A DNA stretch of 26,328 nucleotides from a virus: IMG/VR virus record IMGVR_UViG_3300009436_000096, positions 1 through 26,328 of that record; one strand, 5' to 3'. The notes under the pieces were generated by a model. It was not told where the DNA came from, made no database searches, and saw only the letters and a program-made list of their open reading frames with translations. The position numbers were made by a program, and so were the translations under genes. Positions 2,726 through 17,087 of the stretch are shown piece after piece. Each line of letters starts with the position of its first letter. Positions within the stretch are counted from its first letter, which is position 1.

Positions 2726-3420
2726 AACTAGATTGCTATACATTTGATGAAAATTTAATTACATTACAGCCTATACAAACAAAATCACCTAAGCCAAAAT
2801 GGTGGAATGGTTTAAAGAAGCTGTATAAAGTATTTGATATTAAATCAGGAATTGAAGTTCCTAGCCCAACAATTAAGCTATGTCCTGGCGTAGTAGATTA
2901 TATGCGTAATGCTATTGAAATAAAACTATGGACTGATGCTATATTCAAAGTCTATCCTGATGGTAAAGTAACTACTGCTTCTCCATTACATGAAGGCAAT
3001 GCTATGATAGCGGGCGTACACTCAGAAAAGCAAACAGGTCCTGATTTATATCCAGGAAGAACTGTTGTAAAGATTACAAACCCTTGGTGTGTTGTTGGAT
3101 CAGATAGAACACAGTTTATGTGCACCGAAGTACATTACTCAGAAGATTTAAGAGAACATGGAATAATTGTATCACCAGGAGTTCTAAACTTCTATGATCA
3201 GCATGCACTTAATATATTCTTAGTGTTCCCTTTAAAAGACGAACCATATGAAATAGAATTAAAATATGGTACACCTTTAATGGGCTTACATCCTTTAACA
3301 GATAAGCCTGTTGAAATTGAATGCCATAAAGCTGGCAGGGAAAAGTTTAACGATATATTAGCTAATTTCCCATCTACGTTTTTTGGTAGATATTATGCTA
3401 AGAGAAAGGTTACTAAATAA
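2722..3420 (+). CDS. Unrecognised protein in radical-SAM/2OG operon (232 aa)
   Basis: The start codon overlaps the stop of the preceding radical-SAM gene (ATGA). The stop is immediately followed by the oxygenase gene, whose ATG shares the last base, so this is a coupled operon member. The sequence is Trp- and Pro-rich at the N-terminus and then a long run of alternating beta-type segments. The latter half (for example LKYGTPLMGLHPLTDKPVEI) suggests a small beta-barrel or beta-clip-like fold. There are no cysteine clusters, P-loop or membrane segments. The layout (short CY near the N-terminus, early W, conserved R/C/P positions) loosely recalls the DUF6065 family of proteins of unknown function, but I would not assign it. 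It could be the substrate or a partner of the neighbouring enzymes. Confidence 0.65.
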   Translation: MKLDCYTFDENLITLQPIQTKSPKPKWWNGLKKLYKVFDIKSGIEVPSPTIKLCPGVVDYMRNAIEIKLWTDAIFKVYPDGKVTTASPLHEGNAMIAGVHSEKQTGPDLYPGRTVVKITNPWCVVGSDRTQFMCTEVHYSEDLREHGIIVSPGVLNFYDQHALNIFLVFPLKDEPYEIELKYGTPLMGLHPLTDKPVEIECHKAGREKFNDILANFPSTFFGRYYAKRKVTK

Positions 3421-3980
3421 TGGAATATCTTAGTCTATGGCCTACAGAAGTAGCCAAAGGTAAGTTTGATACTACAGGAATGGTGGATTACATTTTAACA
3501 CACTATGATATTAACAACCTACATTCCGAAACATCGGGTTTTAATATGTTCGATAACGATCATGAAACTTTAAATGCGTTTAAAGACATGTGTTATGAGA
3601 ATTTTGACCATTATCTCACAAATACTATCGGTAAAAGGATATCAAACTGGGGTAATTATACTATGAAATCATGGCTTACGGGCCACGGTAACGATTATAG
3701 TATGACAATACACAATCATTCAGGGGCTCATTTGTCGGCTGTATATTATGTATTGGCGGAAGAAAAGAATGCTGGCGGGGATATAGTATTTACTGATCCT
3801 CGTTCAAATGCAAATAGAGGGTACGATGATAATTTTGAACCTATGTTTAAACAGTTCAAGCATGTACCCGAAACTGGAGACTTTATGATTTTTCCTAGTT
3901 TTACTTATCATCACGTTAATCCATACCTTTCTAACCTTAGAATGTGTATACCTGTAGATCTATTTCTGCATAGAGGATAA
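3420..3980 (+). CDS. Putative 2OG-Fe(II) oxygenase (186 aa)
   Basis: The C-terminal half matches the phage/bacterial 2OG-Fe(II) oxygenase family often called 2OG-FeII_Oxy_5 (TIGR02466-like). It has an HxH-type segment with small residues and LSAVYYV (residues 98-111), then GGDIVFTDPR (119-128). A GDFMIFPS strand (153-160) precedes the distal His (YHHVNP, H164/H165), and the 2-oxoglutarate-binding Arg is probably R174. These enzymes hydroxylate proteins or small molecules using iron, oxygen and 2-oxoglutarate, and are common in marine T4-like phages. The length is normal for the family. It closes the radical-SAM operon; after its stop the intergenic region contains late-promoter-like boxes. 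Confidence 0.85.
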   Translation: MEYLSLWPTEVAKGKFDTTGMVDYILTHYDINNLHSETSGFNMFDNDHETLNAFKDMCYENFDHYLTNTIGKRISNWGNYTMKSWLTGHGNDYSMTIHNHSGAHLSAVYYVLAEEKNAGGDIVFTDPRSNANRGYDDNFEPMFKQFKHVPETGDFMIFPSFTYHHVNPYLSNLRMCIPVDLFLHRG

Positions 3981-4027: not shown

Positions 4028-4069
4028 ACCTAACTATTATAGTTATATTAACAATTGGAGAATAAAGAA

Positions 4070-4480
4070 ATGGCTCTTACACTAGAATACTCAATTACTA
4101 ATCTTAAAGTAAAAGATGAAGTAAACGCTGACGGTGATACGCTAACAAACGCAGTTGTACAAACTTATTGGAAAGTCCAAGGAACAGATCCTGAAGGCAA
4201 TACTTCCGATTGGTCAGGTGCTACACCTTTCACTGCAGCTAACGTTCCTGCTGGTTCGTTTACAGCATTTGAAAGCTTAGAAGAAGCAACAGTGGTTGGC
4301 TGGGTTACAGCTGTCGTTGAAGCTGACGCTGGTTACAAAGCGCACATCCTAGAACAATTACAACGTCAAATCGACGAAACGCTTATTACAGACGCTGAAA
4401 TGCCTTGGGCTGAGGATGTTACACCACCTCTACCTGATGATGCACCTGGCGCTGAAGATCCTGCACCAGCAGGCGAGTAA
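4070..4480 (+). CDS. Small phage protein, DUF7936-like (136 aa)
   Basis: I chose the ATG at 4070, because TTGGAG at 4055-4060 is its ribosome-binding site about 9 bases upstream; the in-frame TTG at 4055 is part of that site. The protein starts MALTLEYSITNLKVKDE and contains the layout tyWkvqGtd..g, tpF.a and an ATVVGWV helix followed by I..q..rqIde. This recalls a small protein family frequent beside tail genes of marine phages (I believe DUF7936), function unknown. The next gene encodes a shorter member, so the two look like a duplication. Unlike it, this copy ends in a Pro/Ala/Asp/Glu-rich low-complexity tail of about 25 residues. It probably has late expression and is a virion or tail accessory protein by context. 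Confidence 0.75.
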   Translation: MALTLEYSITNLKVKDEVNADGDTLTNAVVQTYWKVQGTDPEGNTSDWSGATPFTAANVPAGSFTAFESLEEATVVGWVTAVVEADAGYKAHILEQLQRQIDETLITDAEMPWAEDVTPPLPDDAPGAEDPAPAGE

Positions 4481-4498: not shown

Positions 4499-4825
4499 AT
4501 GACTTTTACTTGGCATATTTCCAAGCTTGGATTAACAGACAAAATGAGTACAGACAATGTCTTGCTCGAAAATGCTATTGTTAATGTTAAGTGGAAACGT
4601 ATTGCAGAAGATGCTGATGGAACCCTTGCAAGTTATGTCGGAAACACAGGATTAACCGTCTCATTAGAGGCGGCTAATTTTGTTGCGTTAAACGATGTCA
4701 CTGCTGAACAAGTTACTAGCTGGATCGAAGAAGAAATTGGTGCGGCAGGTCTATCTAAAATGGATAGCATATTAGAAACTAAAATTGAACGAAAAAGATT
4801 GAGAAATGTCTCCACTAGCTGGTAG
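4499..4825 (+). CDS. Small phage protein, paralogue of preceding gene (108 aa)
   Basis: The N-terminus MTFTWHISKLGL, a central VNVKWKRIAEDADG strand and a late VTSWIEEEIG helix align with the MALTLEYSITNL, WKVQGTDPEG and VVGWVTAVVE segments of the gene just upstream. An AAAGGA ribosome site lies at 4486-4491. It lacks the Pro/Ala-rich tail of its paralogue and ends in a basic helix. Function is unknown; a tail-fibre or tail accessory role is likely only from the neighbourhood. The two genes are separated by 18 bases and probably share a transcript. Confidence 0.72.
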   Translation: MTFTWHISKLGLTDKMSTDNVLLENAIVNVKWKRIAEDADGTLASYVGNTGLTVSLEAANFVALNDVTAEQVTSWIEEEIGAAGLSKMDSILETKIERKRLRNVSTSW

Positions 4826-5920: not shown

Positions 5921-7156
5921 ATGATGAAATTTAATATGAATCTTTTGAATGATGTTGTATTGGACTACGACAATCCTGATAAAATATATGCATTAGCTCG
6001 AGAGTACGACAAATTGGAACAGGGATCAGGAGCATTCAGTTTCTATCTACGTGCAGCTGATATGTCGGCAGGAAAAACCTTTGAAGAGAAATGGTTACAA
6101 TATAAATGTATGATTCTTTCTGCGTTTATCTATAAAAGAAATGATAATCGTAATCAAAGTGTTGAAGGTCTATTAAAGATTGCAATTGCAACATTACCTG
6201 AAAGACCAGAAGCTTATTACTTTCTTGCAGTAGTAAAACAAGAACGTGATGATTGGCGTGAATGTTTAATGTACACTACAATTGGTATGAGCAATATTGG
6301 AGATCATCCACTAGATAATGATATTGGTTATCCAGGTCATAATGCTTTAAAACTATTAAATGCGAGATCAAAGTGGAAGACAGATGGCAGGGATGCCTCT
6401 AAGAATTTAGCTTTTGATTTAAAATATAAGAATGTACTAAACAAAAAAGACTATAAAGCTGCAACAGTATTATTGGCAGAACACGGTTATCCAAGTACTC
6501 TTGCATATGATAAAACATTATTTAGTAATTATAAATTCAAGTTTAATGGACTTCAAGATATAGAACAGAACTACTCTCGACATTTCCAAGATATGTTTGT
6601 TCTATCTGTATTAGACGGTAAACGTAAAGGTACATTTGTAGAGGTAGGATCTGGCCATCCTGAATTATTCAATAATACATTACTATTAGAAAAAGACTTT
6701 GACTGGAGTGGTATATCAATAGATAACTCAGAAAGGTTTGCACAAATATTCAGTAGAAAAAGAGCTACAAGTATGCTCCTATGTGATGGTGCAACAACTG
6801 ATTATAAAGTACTCTTTAAACAACAGTGTTTAGAACAGCATATCGATTTTCTTAGAATAAATGCAGAAACAGCTTCATTAAAAGTTTTAGAAGCTATTCC
6901 TTTTGATAGACACGAATTTGGTATTGTTCAATTCCAACATAATGCTACATGGTGGGGAGACGATTTAAAAACTAAATCAAGAGAAATACTATCAAAAATC
7001 GGATATATATTATTAGTAAGCGATGTTGCAGTTGATGAGACTCAAAACTATGAAGATTGGTGGATACATCCAATGTATGCTAATCGAGTTGCACAAATGA
7101 GATCTAATAATAAAACAAACTTTGCATGGAACTATATGATGGAGAAAGTTAAATGA
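5921..7156 (+). CDS. TPR-like domain fused to FkbM-type methyltransferase (411 aa)
   Basis: The N-terminal 200 residues are helical, with a TPR-like segment around ERPEAYYFLAVVKQERDDW (94-112). From about residue 237 the protein has a SAM-dependent methyltransferase fold of FkbM type. Motif I is GTFVEVGSGHPELFNNT, an acidic strand end is GISIDNS (264-270), then comes DFLRINAET..LKVLEAI. FkbM enzymes O-methylate sugars or similar small groups. The TPR plus FkbM combination occurs in surface-glycan gene sets. Two methionines open the gene (5921 and 5924). The 3' end overlaps the following nucleotidyltransferase gene by four bases (ATGA-type coupling). Substrate unknown; a glycan or virion protein sugar is inferred from the neighbours. 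Confidence 0.8.
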   Translation: MMKFNMNLLNDVVLDYDNPDKIYALAREYDKLEQGSGAFSFYLRAADMSAGKTFEEKWLQYKCMILSAFIYKRNDNRNQSVEGLLKIAIATLPERPEAYYFLAVVKQERDDWRECLMYTTIGMSNIGDHPLDNDIGYPGHNALKLLNARSKWKTDGRDASKNLAFDLKYKNVLNKKDYKAATVLLAEHGYPSTLAYDKTLFSNYKFKFNGLQDIEQNYSRHFQDMFVLSVLDGKRKGTFVEVGSGHPELFNNTLLLEKDFDWSGISIDNSERFAQIFSRKRATSMLLCDGATTDYKVLFKQQCLEQHIDFLRINAETASLKVLEAIPFDRHEFGIVQFQHNATWWGDDLKTKSREILSKIGYILLVSDVAVDETQNYEDWWIHPMYANRVAQMRSNNKTNFAWNYMMEKVK

Positions 7157-7914
7157 AACCAGTATTAATAACAGGCGGATTTGATCCGATTCATTCGGGT
7201 CATATCGCATATATGAAAGCAGCTAAAGAACTCGGATCTATTCTATATGTCGGAGTAAATTCTGATGAATGGTTAACTCGTAAGAAAGGTAGACCATTTA
7301 TGTCATTAGAAGAAAGAATGGCTATTATTAAAGAAATAGGATGTGTAGGTCACGTATTCTCTTTTAATGATGATGACGATACGGCTATTAATGCTATTGA
7401 ATATGTAAAATACTCTGCACCTCGTAACGCTGAAATTATCTTTGCAAATGGTGGAGATCGTACAAAGGGTAATATCCCTGAAATGTTTAGTGGTGGAGAT
7501 CAAGTAAAGTTTCACTTTGGTGTAGGTGGAGACGATAAAAAGAATAGTTCGTCTTGGATTCTAAATGAATGGGATAAACCTACTACTCAAAGACTGTGGG
7601 GAAAATATCGTAATCTAGATTCTAACGGTCATTGGAGAGTAAAAGAACTATCAATTGATGTTGGTAAGTCTTTATCAGACCAACGACACTTCGTGAGATC
7701 CGAACATTGGCATATTGTTGATGGTGAATTGAAAATGAATCTTGAATTCAAGAACGGTTACACTTCATCTAAGATATACAAAACTGGTGACAGCATCGAC
7801 ATACCGATAAATACATGGCATATGGCGACCAATGTCGGTGACAAACCGGTTAAAGTCATAGAAGTTTGGATGGGATATACCTTATCCGAAGAAGATATTG
7901 AAAGAAGAACTTAG
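7153..7914 (+). CDS. Nucleotidyltransferase-cupin fusion (253 aa)
   Basis: Residues 1-140 form an HxGH-superfamily cytidylyl/adenylyltransferase: GGFDPIHSGH at 8-17 gives the nucleotide-binding HSGH, and GGDDKKNSSSWILNEW (125-140) resembles the RfaE/TagD C-terminal motif. Residues about 145-245 form a cupin close to the C-terminal domain of type II mannose-6-phosphate isomerase/GDP-mannose pyrophosphorylase, with LSDQRHFVRSEHWHIVDG (174-191) giving the metal-binding His set. This pairs activation of a phosphorylated sugar or polyol with a sugar-binding or isomerising domain in one chain. The fusion closes the sugar cassette. Its product would be a nucleotide-activated sugar for surface or virion glycosylation, which is inference; the exact substrate is not readable. 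Confidence 0.85.
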   Translation: MKPVLITGGFDPIHSGHIAYMKAAKELGSILYVGVNSDEWLTRKKGRPFMSLEERMAIIKEIGCVGHVFSFNDDDDTAINAIEYVKYSAPRNAEIIFANGGDRTKGNIPEMFSGGDQVKFHFGVGGDDKKNSSSWILNEWDKPTTQRLWGKYRNLDSNGHWRVKELSIDVGKSLSDQRHFVRSEHWHIVDGELKMNLEFKNGYTSSKIYKTGDSIDIPINTWHMATNVGDKPVKVIEVWMGYTLSEEDIERRT

Positions 7915-8447: not shown

Positions 8448-9038
8448 ATGTCTGCAAATGCTGCGGTTACTACAACATTAGATTTCCAATACTTCGGTGG
8501 CGGTGTTATTCAAGTATCAGGAGAGCTATCAGGATTAATTGATAACTCTTTTGTTTTTGATGGCGTCGTTCCAATTGTTGGTCATATCGAACCAGTAAGC
8601 ATTGAATTTGGTTTTAGTGCAGGTATTGAAACACCTACAATATATGGCGCGTTAACTCCACAATTAATACCTTTCTCTTCAAACAGTTTTGTAGAGTTTG
8701 GTGTACAAAGATACCTTTCAGTAGCAAACAATACTTTATTCGATTATGGCGCGACTTCTGAAGGTTATGTTACAACTCACGTAAACTTTAATCCTACATT
8801 AGAATTTAATCTTGAAACAGATATCTACGTATTCTCATTAGGAGATACCAGTGGAACATATTCTTTCAGTCTTGATGGGTTAGGATTAAACATATCTACT
8901 AGAGAATACTCAAGAACAGGCGGTAATACCATAACATTCGATGGAATTGATAACAACTCCGCTAATATAATACACGACACGAATGGAATAAAATTAATTA
9001 GCAACGGGGTTTCATACGCTGAAATTCTACAGACATAG
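8448..9038 (+). CDS. Beta-rich hypothetical virion protein (196 aa)
   Basis: I do not recognise a family. The sequence is a long series of short beta strands with Gly, Asn and Thr (for example FQYFGGGVIQVSGELSG), has no cysteine and no charged clusters, and lacks a signal peptide. This composition is usual for phage tail, baseplate or fibre domains. It follows the small tail-region protein by 22 bases and precedes a gap with two late-promoter-like boxes. A structural role is likely from composition and position. Confidence 0.6.
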   Translation: MSANAAVTTTLDFQYFGGGVIQVSGELSGLIDNSFVFDGVVPIVGHIEPVSIEFGFSAGIETPTIYGALTPQLIPFSSNSFVEFGVQRYLSVANNTLFDYGATSEGYVTTHVNFNPTLEFNLETDIYVFSLGDTSGTYSFSLDGLGLNISTREYSRTGGNTITFDGIDNNSANIIHDTNGIKLISNGVSYAEILQT

Positions 9039-9090: not shown

Positions 9091-9423
9091 ATGGCGGCTA
9101 GCTTTTACATAAAACAAAACGACACTGCACCGTCTATTGAGGCTGGATTAACTGATTCTAATGGTAGAATCAAATCAATGGCAAACGCAGCATCAGTTAA
9201 GTTCCATATGCGAGACGAAAACGGTACCGTGCTTATCGATTCTGGTCTAGGGACTATTACGAGTCCAGCAAAAGGAATCGTTGCATATGAATGGCAAGAT
9301 GGTGATACCTCAAATACTGGTATTCATAGTGCAGAATTTCAAATAGAATACAATAACGGCCAGATAGAAACATTCCCAAACACCGGTTATATTAAAGTAA
9401 TCATTAAAGACGAGATATCATAA
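9091..9423 (+). CDS. Baseplate upper-protein N-terminal-like domain protein (110 aa)
   Basis: The N-terminal FYIKQNDTAPSIEAGLTDSN, the central VKFHMRDENGTVLIDS and the late Y..G....I strands match the immunoglobulin-like N-terminal domain of phage baseplate upper proteins (BppU_N/DUF2479-like). Free-standing copies occur in tail regions of many phages, where they may join fibres to the baseplate. The length fits a single domain. The stop codon shares its last base with the ATG of gp13, so translation is coupled to the neck gene. Confidence 0.65.
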   Translation: MAASFYIKQNDTAPSIEAGLTDSNGRIKSMANAASVKFHMRDENGTVLIDSGLGTITSPAKGIVAYEWQDGDTSNTGIHSAEFQIEYNNGQIETFPNTGYIKVIIKDEIS

Positions 9424-10166
9424 TGCCACAACCACAATCAAGAGAAGAATTTAAAGACTATTGTTTAAGAAAGATCGGTGCACCAGTCATCGAGATTAAC
9501 GTGTCTGAAGAACAGATCGACGATCGTGTAGATGAGGCTATTTCTTTCTGGAGAGATTACCACTATAACGGTTCTGAAATGGTATATCTAAAACATGCTC
9601 TCACAGCAAAAGATATCGAAAACGGATATATTACTCTACCACAAAAGTTACTTGGTATATCTAAGATCTTTCCATTAGATACTTCGATCTCAACAGGATC
9701 CGGAATATTTAATGTAAATTATCAGTTCGTTTTAAACAATCTGAATGATCTTACAGGATATACAATCCAGAATTATTATATGACTATGACCCACTTAACT
9801 TTCTTACAAGAGTGGTTAGTAGGAAAACCAATGATTCGCTATAACAAACATTCCAATAAACTTTATATCGATACAGGTAAGGCATCCTTGGCTGTAGGTA
9901 AATATATTATTGTTGAAGCATATGATGTTATAGATGAAGATGCATATCCAGACGTATTTGGAGATCGTTGGTTACAAAATTATTCTACTGTTCTTATCAG
10001 AGAGCAATGGGGTTTAAACCTAACCAAATTTACAAACATGCAGTTAGTTGGTGGTGTTACCTTTAATGGTGAACAGATTTTACAGGAAGCCAGAGCTGAA
10101 AGAGAAAAAATGGAAGAAGAAGCAATTCGGTCTCTTCAACCACTCACATATAATTTCATTGGATAA
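9423..10166 (+). CDS. gp13: Neck protein gp13-like (247 aa)
   Basis: This matches T4-like neck protein gp13 by its N-terminal pattern (SREEFKDYCLRKIGAPVIEI..SEEQIDDRVDEAI.FW.DYHYNG), characteristic of the marine T4-like versions, and by its position directly ahead of gp14 and gp15. gp13 joins head and tail and acts after packaging. At 247 residues it is shorter than T4 gp13 (309), as usual for marine relatives. The C-terminus is charged and helical. It is separated from gp14 by three bases. Confidence 0.9.
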   Translation: MPQPQSREEFKDYCLRKIGAPVIEINVSEEQIDDRVDEAISFWRDYHYNGSEMVYLKHALTAKDIENGYITLPQKLLGISKIFPLDTSISTGSGIFNVNYQFVLNNLNDLTGYTIQNYYMTMTHLTFLQEWLVGKPMIRYNKHSNKLYIDTGKASLAVGKYIIVEAYDVIDEDAYPDVFGDRWLQNYSTVLIREQWGLNLTKFTNMQLVGGVTFNGEQILQEARAEREKMEEEAIRSLQPLTYNFIG

Positions 10167-10169
10167 AAA

Positions 10170-10850
10170 ATGGCAACGAATGCATACTTTAGAAATTACA
10201 ACAATTTCAATGAACAGAATTTAATTGACGATCTAGTAATCGAATCAATTCGAATGTATGGCATTGATGTTAAATACCTTAGTGGCAAATTTAACCAAGT
10301 TGATAAAATCTTTAACGAAGACGATACACCGTTATATGACGAGATGTACGGCTTTGAAGTATACGTTAAAAATGTCGATGGCTTTGAAGGTGAAGGCGAC
10401 TTCCTATCTAAATTCGGTCTACAAATCAGAGATCAAATTACTTTCAGTGTCGCAATAAGAACATTTGAAAGATATGTTACTCGTAAAGATTCAGAGAAAA
10501 TACGTCCAAGAGAAAACGATATTATTTGGTTACCTCTTAATCAGAAAATGTATAGAATTACTTACGTAGAACATGAAAGCGTATTCTATCAAGCAGGTAA
10601 GTTACAAGTTTACGATATCAAATGTGAACTTATGGAATTCTCTAATGAGAGATTCGATACTGGTAGACCTGAAATTGATGAGTACTTTGATGATATTAAA
10701 TCTACTGATGATGTTGTACAGACACTAGAAGATGTGGCCAACAATGATCCAATAGCTCAGAACTTTGAATTCGAAAAAATATCTGATGATATATTAGACT
10801 TCTCTGAAGTCGATCCATTCAGTGAAAACATTAGCATAGAGGATTCCTAA
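10170..10850 (+). CDS. gp14: Neck protein gp14-like (226 aa)
   Basis: This sits between gp13 and gp15 as in all T4-like phages. It carries the family pattern (YFRNYNNFNEQNLIDDLVIESIRMYG near the N-terminus, then DIIWLPLNQKMYRITYVEHE..FYQ.GKLQVYDIKCELMEFSNERFDTG). The product forms the neck or collar joining the filled head to the tail. T4 gp14 is 256 residues. The C-terminal 50 residues are very acidic. Its stop overlaps the gp15 ATG by one base. Confidence 0.9.
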   Translation: MATNAYFRNYNNFNEQNLIDDLVIESIRMYGIDVKYLSGKFNQVDKIFNEDDTPLYDEMYGFEVYVKNVDGFEGEGDFLSKFGLQIRDQITFSVAIRTFERYVTRKDSEKIRPRENDIIWLPLNQKMYRITYVEHESVFYQAGKLQVYDIKCELMEFSNERFDTGRPEIDEYFDDIKSTDDVVQTLEDVANNDPIAQNFEFEKISDDILDFSEVDPFSENISIEDS

Positions 10851-12943
10851 TGGCTATTGCAAATTACTTTTATAATGAAACTACGAGAAGATACGTAGCT
10901 TTATTCGGTACATTATTTAACCAGTTAAAAATCGAAAGATCAGATAACGCTGGTACTAAAATACAATCTATGATTGTACCACTATCTTATGCCCCAGCTC
11001 AAAAGATTCTTGCAAGACTCAGAGATGATCCTGACTTATTAAATAGTCGTAGAACTGCTATGACTCTTCCTAGAATGTCTTTTGAAATCACGAGTTTAAA
11101 CTATGATCCACAACGTAAAATTGGATCTACTCATAAGATGACAAAGTCTGCAAAAGCAGAAACAGAATCATCACGTAATTTTGTACACTCAGCGGTACCA
11201 TACAATTTAGATTTTTCTTTATACATTATGACAAAGTATTCAGAAGATGCTACAAAGATTATGGAACAAATCATTCCATTCTTTACTCCTGATTGGACTG
11301 TAACTGCTAAGATGGTTAATGATTTAGATCCTATTGATATTCCTATTATCCTTAATGGTGTTACCACCGAAGATCTTTACGAAGCTGATTTTGAATCACG
11401 ACAAACCATTATGTACACACTCAACTTTACATTAAAAGGTTGGTACTTCGGACCAGAGAAGAAACAAAAGATAATCAAATTTATTGATATAGATATGATG
11501 ACTGATACTGCCTCAAACGCTCCTCGCCAAGAAGGTGTTACAATTAAGCCAGGACTAGATTCAAATGGTAATCCATTAAATGAAGATGGTGTTGGAGTAA
11601 CAGCAGTTGCATCACTTACAAATGGTACTGTTGATACAATTGCAATTACAAACGATGGTGAAAACTATGATGCTAATAATAGTATTGCGGTAACAGTTGC
11701 AGCTCCAGATGCTTTAGATGCCAGCATTACAGCCAATGTATCGAATACAGCAATTGCTTCGTTCAACATACTTGAGGCTGGAGGGTTCTATTCTAGCTTA
11801 CCAAATATAACTATAACTCCTCCAAACATGCCCGTAACAACCGCTGCAGTGTCACAGATCATTGCTGGAGGGGCCATTACATCTATCAATATAGACAATC
11901 CAGGTACATACTATAATTCAGCCACTATTGCAATATCTGAGCCACCGGCTAAATCACCTTATGTTAAATTTGGTGATGATGCTTTATATCACGATAGCCA
12001 TACTGATACAACATTACTTCATACAACAGGAATTAATTTCGTAACAGCGGGTAGTGGTTATGCTATCGAGTTTTGGATATATCCAACAGAATTTAATGCA
12101 AACGATAATGTTATTCTACATATGAATGGTTCTCAAATGAGAATTGAAATAGAAGATGGCACTGGAACTCTTGCATTATTCTACGCAACAGGTGGTGCAC
12201 CATGTAGGTCAACTCCTGAAACATTAAATCTTAATGCATGGAATCACTGTCGTGTTGAACACTTTGGTGCAAATGCAAGATGGTTAGTAAACGGTGTAGC
12301 TGATGCTGGCACCTCAGGTCCTCAAGGATTCTTACTCGGTGGTGGAGCACAGGTTATTGCCGGTGAACGTTCTGCAAACGAAAGATCTTTCCTAGGTGCA
12401 TTAGATAACGTTAGTATTTCTACAATTAGTGCATTAACACCTGCTGGTACATACACAGTACCGACTGATCCAACAAACGGAACAGATTACACTGGTAACT
12501 TTGATAAAGATATTGCTTCGGCAGATCTTGTTGTTACCAACGGTGAAGTCACTGGTGTTACAATAACAAATAACGGTTTAAACTATGACGCTAATACAGT
12601 GTTTACAATATCAGCACCAAATGGTGTTGCTGCAGATTATCAAGCAACTGCAACTCCGGTCTTAGTAGACGGAAGCGTAAACTCAATCACTATAAATAAT
12701 AGTGGTAAGTTCTACACCTCGGCAAATGTTTCAATCGATTCAGTAGTTACAAGTACTGCAACGGCAAACATAGTAATTGATGGTACAGGACAAGCCACAA
12801 GTATTAACGTAACAAATGCTGGTTCTGGTTATCGTACAGCTCCTGCAGTTACAATTGGAGGTCCAGCCGCAACGTCAGTACCATATACACAAATTGAATT
12901 TGATGACGACTGGGGTATTATTACAATATTTGAGGATGAATAA
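10850..12943 (+). CDS. gp15: Tail sheath terminator/stabiliser gp15-like with large LamG-containing insertion (697 aa)
   Basis: Residues 1-235 match T4-like gp15, the tail-completion protein that caps the sheath. Motifs include AIANYFYNETTRRYVALFG, LNSRRTAMTLPRMSFEI and a GWYFGPEKKQKIIKFI segment at about 197-212. T4 gp15 is 272 residues; here the chain is 697. Residues 250-366 contain three Gly/Tyr-type beta repeats. About 369-545 is a concanavalin A/LamG-like domain (GYAIEFWIYPTEF; LNLNAWNHCRVEHFG; WLVNGV; FLGALDNVSIS). Residues 567-672 contain three more repeats. The last 17 residues (IEFDDDWGIITIFEDE) return to a gp15-like acidic C-terminus, so the extra part is an insertion, not a tail. 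It probably projects as a sugar-binding decoration from the neck. gp14 and gp16 flank it with one-base overlaps. Confidence 0.9.
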   Translation: MAIANYFYNETTRRYVALFGTLFNQLKIERSDNAGTKIQSMIVPLSYAPAQKILARLRDDPDLLNSRRTAMTLPRMSFEITSLNYDPQRKIGSTHKMTKSAKAETESSRNFVHSAVPYNLDFSLYIMTKYSEDATKIMEQIIPFFTPDWTVTAKMVNDLDPIDIPIILNGVTTEDLYEADFESRQTIMYTLNFTLKGWYFGPEKKQKIIKFIDIDMMTDTASNAPRQEGVTIKPGLDSNGNPLNEDGVGVTAVASLTNGTVDTIAITNDGENYDANNSIAVTVAAPDALDASITANVSNTAIASFNILEAGGFYSSLPNITITPPNMPVTTAAVSQIIAGGAITSINIDNPGTYYNSATIAISEPPAKSPYVKFGDDALYHDSHTDTTLLHTTGINFVTAGSGYAIEFWIYPTEFNANDNVILHMNGSQMRIEIEDGTGTLALFYATGGAPCRSTPETLNLNAWNHCRVEHFGANARWLVNGVADAGTSGPQGFLLGGGAQVIAGERSANERSFLGALDNVSISTISALTPAGTYTVPTDPTNGTDYTGNFDKDIASADLVVTNGEVTGVTITNNGLNYDANTVFTISAPNGVAADYQATATPVLVDGSVNSITINNSGKFYTSANVSIDSVVTSTATANIVIDGTGQATSINVTNAGSGYRTAPAVTIGGPAATSVPYTQIEFDDDWGIITIFEDE
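11630..12865 (+). repeat. Six Gly/Tyr beta repeats flanking a LamG-like domain in gp15
   Basis: Repeats of about 25 residues with pattern v.siti.n.G..Y......v.i..p lie at gp15 residues 261-286, 302-325, 342-366, then 567-590, 610-630 and 649-672. The period within each group is about 38-43 residues. The LamG-like domain at about nt 11954-12484 lies between the two groups of three. Similar repeats are common in phage tail and fibre proteins and are not themselves diagnostic of function. Confidence 0.75.
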
Positions 12944-15101: not shown

Positions 15102-17087
15102 ATGGCTTTTTCCGTAAGTCCTTCCGTCATTGTTCGAGAAGTGGATGCGAGTCAGGCAGTACCAGGCGTTGCGACGGCCCCAGCGGCATTAGCTGGCATA
15201 TTCAAGTGGGGTCCAGTTAACGATCCTATCTTGATTACCTCTGAGAATGAACTAGTTGAACGTTTCGGTTCCCCAACCGACGACAACTATGAAACATTTT
15301 TCACAGCAGCAGACTACCTCTCATATTCAAATGCACTATATGTGACTCGAGCAGATGATAACTCAAACACCGCAACCTCTACGACAGTCGTATTGGATGC
15401 TAATAATAACATTATAGCAGATGATAGTACCTTCGGTGCGTTCTCAGCTAAATACCCTGGCGCATTAGGTAACTCTATTGAAGTTTCTTGGTCTACCGCA
15501 AAGGCGTTTATGTCTGAAATCGAACCAGTAGGTGGAATTGATTCTAACCAAATTGGTGATGAATCAGTATCGCAAACCATTGGATTTAATTCTAATGAAT
15601 TATCATTCGAAGTTGAAGCAACATTGGATGCAAACAACGCCGTAACAGCAACTAACGTTGAACCTGTTTATGTAGGCGATGTTCTTGTAATCGGTAACTC
15701 AAGTGTTGGATACCAAGACATAGTCGTAACATCAGTAGAAAATACAGATGTTGAAGGCACAGTTGGTGTTGGTAATAACGCTGTTACAGTAACAATTGCT
15801 ACAAAAGTAGATATTGGACTTGGTTCAAGATATACATTAGCTGAGACTGATCTAAGTAAGGTATCAATCACTAGAAAGTGGGCACAAAATGCACTATTTG
15901 GTAAAGCACCAAGTGTAGGACATGTTCATATTACAGTCTCTGATAAAGATGGTTTAATCACAGGTACACCTAATACAGTACTTGAAGTATTCGAAAATCT
16001 TTCAACAACAGCAGGTGCTCAAGGCGCTCAAGGTGGAACAAACTATTACGATACAGTAATCGAAAATATGTCTTCTTGGGTCAAAGTTGCTAATACTGCA
16101 GTAGTTACTGCGGCTATTTCCAACGAAGATGACGTCGCTACTGCTAAGGTAACAGCATACGAAAGAATGGCTGCCGGATCTGATGCTTCAACTGAAAGTA
16201 CAGCATCGTTAAGTGGTCTAGCATTTGCATGGGATACATTCAAAAATACAAACGAAATCGACATTAGCTTTATCCTTCAAGGTAAGGGTGATGATCTAGG
16301 TGTTAGAGCTAACTATATTATCTCTAATGTTGCAGATTATCGTAGAGATTGTGTTGCATTCATCTCACCATCTAAAGAAGCAGTCGTTGACGAAGTAAAA
16401 GCAAATGATAAGTTAGTAAATGCTATTGCATATCGTAACAGAATTCAAAATTCATCTTATGCATTCATCGACAGTGGTTATAAATATAGGTATGACAAGT
16501 ACAATGATCAATATCGTTGGACACCATTAAACGGTGACATGGCCGGTCTTTCTTCAAGGGTTGATCCTTGGGAATCTCCAGCTGGTTACAGAAAAGGTAT
16601 TATCAAAAATATCGTTAAATTAGCGTTTAACCCAAGCAAACCACAAAGAGACCAGTTATACAGCTCGGATGTTAATCCGGTTATGTCACAAGCAGGTCGT
16701 GGAATTGTACTATTTGGTGATAAAACAGGTCTTGGAATGGCAAGTGCTTTCGATAGACTGAATGTTCGTAGATTGTTCATCTCAGTTGAAAAAGCGATTG
16801 CTACTGCGGCTGAAAGTTTCTTATTCGAGTTCAATGACGATTTCAGTCAAACTCAATTTAGAAACATAGTTGATCCATTCTTACGTGACATCCAAGGTCG
16901 TCGTGGTATTATTGATTATAGAGTTGTTAGTGATTCTACAGTTAATACACCGGATATCGTAGATGCAAATAAGTTCCGTGCAAGCATATTCATTAAACCA
17001 GCTAGGTCTATTAACGTTATCGAATTAACATTCGTTGCAACTAGAACCGGCGTTGAGTTTGACGAAATTGTTGGTCAGATCGCATAA
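15102..17087 (+). CDS. gp18: Contractile tail sheath protein gp18-like (661 aa)
   Basis: The N-terminus (SPSVIVREVDASQAVPGVAT) and the region (ALAGIFKWGPVNDP..I.SE.ELVERFGSPT) are the signature start of T4-like sheath subunits. The C-terminus (FRASIFIKPARSINVIELTFVATRTGVEFDEI) is the conserved core that forms the sheath mesh. Length is almost the same as T4 gp18 (659). About 140 copies polymerise around the tail tube and contract at injection. It follows the terminase after a 103-base gap and precedes gp19 by 27 bases with its own late-type box. Confidence 0.96.
   Translation: MAFSVSPSVIVREVDASQAVPGVATAPAALAGIFKWGPVNDPILITSENELVERFGSPTDDNYETFFTAADYLSYSNALYVTRADDNSNTATSTTVVLDANNNIIADDSTFGAFSAKYPGALGNSIEVSWSTAKAFMSEIEPVGGIDSNQIGDESVSQTIGFNSNELSFEVEATLDANNAVTATNVEPVYVGDVLVIGNSSVGYQDIVVTSVENTDVEGTVGVGNNAVTVTIATKVDIGLGSRYTLAETDLSKVSITRKWAQNALFGKAPSVGHVHITVSDKDGLITGTPNTVLEVFENLSTTAGAQGAQGGTNYYDTVIENMSSWVKVANTAVVTAAISNEDDVATAKVTAYERMAAGSDASTESTASLSGLAFAWDTFKNTNEIDISFILQGKGDDLGVRANYIISNVADYRRDCVAFISPSKEAVVDEVKANDKLVNAIAYRNRIQNSSYAFIDSGYKYRYDKYNDQYRWTPLNGDMAGLSSRVDPWESPAGYRKGIIKNIVKLAFNPSKPQRDQLYSSDVNPVMSQAGRGIVLFGDKTGLGMASAFDRLNVRRLFISVEKAIATAAESFLFEFNDDFSQTQFRNIVDPFLRDIQGRRGIIDYRVVSDSTVNTPDIVDANKFRASIFIKPARSINVIELTFVATRTGVEFDEIVGQIA

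Follow-up and report, generated by a model that had tools for sequence, protein, structure and literature searches.

A repeat–LamG–repeat module inserted in the tail terminator gp15 of a clade of uncultured T4-like viruses

Neck genes and composition of gp15

The window analysed in this work is the whole of a 26.3 kb IMG/VR record, which represents part of the genome of an uncultured T4-like myophage. According to Pfam and PHROG matches, its genes follow the usual T4-type order gp13–gp14–gp15–gp16–gp17–gp18, and a portal protein is also encoded, whose closest relatives are found in the Sinorhizobium phages phiM12, phiM7 and phiM19 (54% identity). The region before the neck genes contains a cytidylyltransferase fused to a mannose-6-phosphate-isomerase-type cupin (7153–7914), a radical SAM protein (321–1220) and a 2OG-Fe(II) oxygenase (3420–3980), together with two adjoining genes (4055–4480 and 4499–4825) that match DUF7936 (PF25590) and are likely to be a tandem pair. 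Two places upstream of gp13, a gene for a 196-residue protein (8448–9038) has no Pfam or PHROG match; its counterparts in the loci L022 and L024 are only 35% identical, even though the gp13 proteins of these loci reach 74%. The features of the neck region are as follows.

9423–10166, plus strand: gp13 neck protein (head–tail adaptor); PHROG 211, 9.8e-40
10170–10850, plus strand: gp14 neck protein (head closure Hc2), 226 residues, without insert in the window; PF11649, 4.4e-32; PHROG 460
10850–12943, plus strand: gp15 tail terminator / tail sheath stabiliser, 697 residues, with insert
10850–11554, plus strand: gp15 core, residues 1–235; PF16724, T4 gp15 fold
11576–12871, plus strand: insert, residues 243 to about 674; pairwise alignment to plain gp15 proteins
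11597–11710, plus strand: repeat 1, residues 250–287; repeat HMM and predicted strands, as for all six repeats
11711–11830, plus strand: repeat 2, residues 288–327
11831–11947, plus strand: repeat 3, residues 328–366
11954–12508, plus strand: LamG / pentraxin-fold domain, residues 369–553; PF13385, Foldseek, VIA-align; mean pLDDT about 93
12506–12619, plus strand: repeat 4, residues 553–590
12620–12751, plus strand: repeat 5, residues 591–634
12752–12877, plus strand: repeat 6, residues 635–676
12878–12940, plus strand: conserved C-terminal motif VPYTQIEFDDDWGIITIFEDE, residues 677–697; kept in plain gp15 proteins; proposed sheath-clasping arm
15102–17087, plus strand: gp18 tail sheath with C-terminal sheath domain; PF17482, PHROG 23

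The gp15 gene is a single open frame of 697 residues, directly followed by gp16. The family PF16724 (T4-gp15_tss) matches residues 6–227 (E 2.2e-69, 233.8 bits against a cut-off of 25), and the superposition on T4 gp15 that a preliminary description of this DNA had proposed aligns 174 residues of the core model to 4huh with a Z of 16.8 and an rmsd of 3.7. The C-terminal motif aligns to the gp15 ends of phiM12, DLP_6, L248 and L250. Both the core and the end motif are thus intact, as that description had held. T4 gp15 (PF16724; PDB 4huh, 4hud, 3j2m, 9mkb) shares with the window protein the core sequence and fold, the place between gp14 and gp16/gp17 and an acidic end motif that includes an aromatic residue, but it comprises 272 residues, the length that had been quoted and that T-even gp15 proteins have, and carries no insert.

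The LamG-like domain that had been recognized between two blocks of three repeats is well supported. PF13385 (Laminin_G_3) matches residues 399–531 at E 1.9e-15, scoring 57.8 bits where the cut-off is 27.6, and the model of residues 369–553 superposes on the PTX3 pentraxin 8s50 with a Z of 18.7 and an rmsd of 2.6 over 174 aligned residues. A profile search with this domain among solved structures retrieved neurexin and pentraxin chains, while a single-sequence search for solved relatives found none. On both sides of the domain, a repeat HMM finds six good copies in all of a unit of about 38 residues, at 250–287, 289–327, 330–366, 553–591, 596–633 and 633–673, totalling 278 bits against a best score of 4.6 bits in 200 shuffles of the insert; as the HMM was built from the same six units, these values measure the mutual likeness of the repeats and not their independent discovery. 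The repeat blocks had been placed at residues 261–366 and 567–672; their number and composition stand, but both starts were given about ten residues too late (250 and 553). By sequence, the repeats resemble a stretch of the tailspike Dpo31 (28lx; E 0.00027) as well as repeats of several marine phage virion proteins. Moreover, an AlphaFold2 model of gp15 built from 34 relatives predicts three strands in each repeat and an insert that is almost all beta, with no long helix; its pLDDT is about 93 through the insert, drops to about 40–80 for the core and does not reach 50 for the C-terminal motif, and the pTM of the chain is 0.47. A separate model of repeats 4–6 reached a pLDDT of 74 and a pTM of 0.31 and gave no usable PDB match.

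Empty site and spread of LamG-bearing gp15

In plain gp15 proteins (phiM12, DLP_6, L248 and L250), a PG(L/M)xxxGxP segment is followed by a linker of 5–7 residues and a DDDWG-type motif. The insert can be delimited to residues 243 to about 674 because these proteins pass from the linker straight into the same end motif, so that about 432 residues of the window protein occupy the place of 5–7, in agreement with the insertion of some 430 residues initially described. A scan of IMG/VR with the window gp15 retrieved 79 loci, in which 67 of 67 complete gp15 proteins contain LamG and measure 695–707 residues, although such loci are retrieved by their likeness to the queries and their counts are not frequencies in nature; the gp14 proteins of the LamG-bearing loci measure 225–230 residues. 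In the phylogeny, LamG-bearing gp15 proteins form one clade among plain ones (support 100/99), and their sister group consists of plain gp15 proteins of 263–285 residues with the exception of L262. A repeat–LamG–repeat module has therefore been placed in the gp15 linker and fixed in a large clade, with the core and the C-terminal motif retained.

Two trivial explanations that had been raised at the outset were weighed against these data. A standard extension of the gp15 family is ruled out, since plain proteins surround the LamG clade and the empty site is visible. An assembly or gene-calling artefact fusing gp15 with another gene is likewise rejected, as the same layout recurs in all complete proteins and in many assemblies at 46–86% identity, the gp15 motif resumes past the insert and gp16 comes directly next.

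Other extensions occur among the gp15 proteins compared. That of L262 (4001–5278) measures 426 residues and extends past its DDDYG motif with a weak match to DUF285. In L265 (3986–4996), a protein of 337 residues carries only two GSGYxxAPxxTI repeats at the site of the window insert, a possible intermediate layout. Campylobacter phage PC14 (L268, 2974–4005) has a gp15 of 343 residues with a C-terminal extension of its own, and a homing endonuclease gene lies between its neck gene and gp15.

Related modules on other neck proteins

Modules of this kind are also found elsewhere on the neck of T4-like phages. In the cultured cyanophages S-SSM7 and Sf-FS3, gp14 comprises 762–763 residues and consists of repeats, LamG and repeats followed by the gp14 end motif, an arrangement collinear with the window insert that is present in 71 of 71 complete IMG/VR relatives of these proteins. 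As in the window, the module of the cyanophages S-SSM7 (Kyanoviridae), S-SSM6a and Sf-FS3 precedes the C-terminal motif of a neck protein. However, the carrier is gp14 instead of gp15, identity amounts to 25% in the aligned stretch, and the gp15 of these phages has only an insert of about 95 residues of another kind, which in S-SSM7 (L002, 5825–6907) occupies the position that the window insert has; throughout the S-SSM7 group, gp15 keeps a constant length (354–362 residues). Close kin of the window LamG were also sought in cultured phages by tblastn, which returned only the gp14 of S-SSM7 and S-SSM6a, with 32.6% identity over half of the domain.

A different LamG insert is found in the gp14 of the pelagimyophage-like loci L116, L433 and L434 (PF13385 at 1e-8 and 2e-8). 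L116 and L433, from two metagenomes, match at 100%, and L434 matches at 89%, whereas most relatives of these gp14 proteins give shorter matches and have no LamG insert. In HTVC008M (L004, 6318–7712), a tryptophan halogenase gene lies between the two terminase genes. In the cultured Pelagibacter phage Mosig EXVC030M, gp15 (532 residues) resembles the window protein in having repeats and a probable LamG, but its repeat, probable LamG and repeat all lie past the end motif, while those of the window lie before it. This candidate LamG is backed by BLASTP (9e-9) and a profile alignment and was not called in a Pfam search of the protein; the nearest relatives, with 90% core identity, match the core only. 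The gp14 of P-SSM2, like the gp15 of L265, carries repeats only. In each of the 11 longer records that have PF13385, the domain occurs once and always in gp15 or gp14, the complete S-SSM7 being among them. Since the placements differ in carrier protein and site, at least several separate events of LamG placement on neck proteins are likely from the sequences, which suggests an exchangeable binding device on the neck of the phages concerned.

The neck had been regarded as an unusual place for attachment, a view that stands only in part: the insert does lie in the tail terminator, but neck attachment domains are known from lactococcal 936 phages, in which CBMs on neck passage structures (NPS) bind host cells, although weakly (PMC6669499). 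Neck passage proteins are, moreover, a hotspot of domain shuffling (PMC10684548). The NPS of 936 and P335 phages resemble the window gp15 in that they bear carbohydrate-binding modules at the head–tail junction, which are exchanged by shuffling (PMC6669499, PMC10684548), but they are separate, dispensable collar proteins with coiled-coil fibres in siphophages, whereas the window domain is part of one of the core ring proteins in a contractile tail. The window protein is therefore no NPS, which would be a separate collar protein with a BppU-like N-terminal domain and a coiled-coil fibre: its domain is inside gp15, its N-terminal part is PF16724 and its insert is predicted to be almost all beta. 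Nor is it a T4 fibritin (wac), a segmented trimeric coiled coil with its own gene, as the insert is part of gp15 and predicted to be beta-rich. Glycan-binding-type domains at a myophage neck are likewise present in the neck fibres of cyanophage A-1(L) and the collar of Milano (PMC10966104, PMC10491603), but in separate fibre or collar proteins instead of being built into gp15; the CBM on the A-1(L) fibres failed to bind host cells (PMC10966104).

Domain evolution and proposed role

In the T4 virion, gp15 residues 203–245 contact the C-terminal region of gp14 (PMC12270204). The terminators of XM1 and Milano contribute a C-terminal strand to the sheath (PMC10457771, PMC10491603); in the crystal structure of T4 gp15, the C-terminal region is missing (PMC10457771). 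By analogy, we infer that the motif VPYTQIEFDDDWGIITIFEDE may clasp the last sheath ring, for which the C-terminal sheath domain of gp18 is the expected partner. Six gp15 subunits would assemble into a ring on top of the tail, whose C-terminal strands would grip the terminal ring of the sheath in the way known from XM1 and Milano, while the insert would leave the ring as a loop, because, if the end motif clasps the sheath, both flanking segments are anchored. The linear order of these segments most naturally suggests that the insert lies at the surface, with the two blocks of three beta-repeats serving as a putative stalk and LamG as its tip, facing outward at the head–tail junction.

Within the window clade, mean pairwise identity is 70% in the core, 46% and 48% in the repeat blocks, 41% in LamG and 67% in the end motif, LamG being the fastest diverging part of gp15. 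Nevertheless, dN/dS is below 0.3 for every part in the pairs measured, which indicates that LamG stays under purifying selection, and no positive selection on LamG was seen in these pairs. Moreover, LamG appears to have been swapped between backbones by recombination, a reading that is based on domain-by-domain contrasts. Between L022 and L024, LamG is 93% identical against 76% for the core and 47% for repeats 1–3, and the neighbouring proteins reach 74% (gp13), 76% (gp14), 84% (gp17) and 67% (sheath). Conversely, dS between L069 and L071 reaches a saturated 3.85 in LamG, compared with a core value of 0.44 and values of about 0.5 for the two repeat blocks. No near-identical exchange tracts were seen at the DNA level. 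The combination of divergence and swapping is consistent with a function that is conserved and a partner that varies.

LamG-type domains often bind polysaccharides. We put at about an even chance the interpretation that the window gp15 is a working T4-type terminator that displays a lectin-like domain for auxiliary binding to host glycans. The neck-borne LamG would then bind host-surface glycans with low affinity and multivalently, keeping the phage near the cell while the distal fibres seek their receptor. The lactococcal NPS are a precedent for this reading. Three points count against it: LamG folds also bind proteins, the neck stays distant from the cell when a phage attacks tail first, and the A-1(L) neck fibres set a contrary precedent (PMC10966104).

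The variable partner could also belong to the virion itself. In that case, the module would replace the fibritin whiskers of T4 and hold retracted fibres to the neck, either the long tail fibres of the phage or a different kind, regulating their deployment. In T4, the neck fibres attach to gp13 as well as to the long tail fibres (PMC12270204), and the fibritin loop had earlier been assigned a position against gp15 (PMC3004832); variable fibres of the phage itself, as ligand, would likewise account for fast divergence and swapping. However, LamG in L022 and L024 does not track the virion parts compared, sheath and neck proteins, given the identities above, and we consider this role unlikely. 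A structural collar, in which the module packs round the neck or onto the head and stabilizes the joint with no outside ligand, would be compatible with purifying selection, and the Milano collar domain resembles glycan-interacting proteins, yet a stabilizing role has been proposed for it (PMC10491603). This function is rather unlikely as well, since LamG is missing from close sister clades and most T4-likes examined and, unlike a surface in contact with conserved neck proteins, has diverged far more quickly than the core and seems to have changed backbones. Finally, LamG might bind non-host material such as marine polysaccharide gels, mucus or particles, affecting dispersal and not infection. 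The frequent binding of polysaccharides by such domains and the marine origin of the cultured relatives with such modules would agree with this, but host-surface glycans are a simpler ligand, and we regard it as improbable. Beyond auxiliary binding to host glycans, it would be a long shot that the insert, placed between the gp14-contacting segment (203–245 in T4) and the sheath-clasping arm, could couple the binding of a ligand at the neck to contraction of the sheath or opening of the gate, with the gp14 and gp15 rings of marine T4-likes as a shared display platform that was given LamG modules several times.

Lectin-like domains at phage necks are already known as separate collar or fibre proteins, and a search of open-licence papers returned no description of LamG in either gp14 or gp15 of T4-like phages. 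With respect to that literature, the new element is a lectin-like domain integrated in a T4-type terminator and fixed in a clade, with separate gp14 and gp15 placements in other marine T4-likes. The layout is not an oddity of one contig but belongs to a widespread clade of uncultured T4-like viruses. Searches for the receptors of marine phages target distal fibres; if swappable lectin-like domains do sit on the neck rings of common marine myophages, the neck would be a second attachment site, one that goes unnoticed when the proteins are annotated as "tail sheath stabilizer" or "neck protein". Modules of this type are present in phages that are in culture (S-SSM7, Sf-FS3 and Mosig), so this idea can be tested on isolates.
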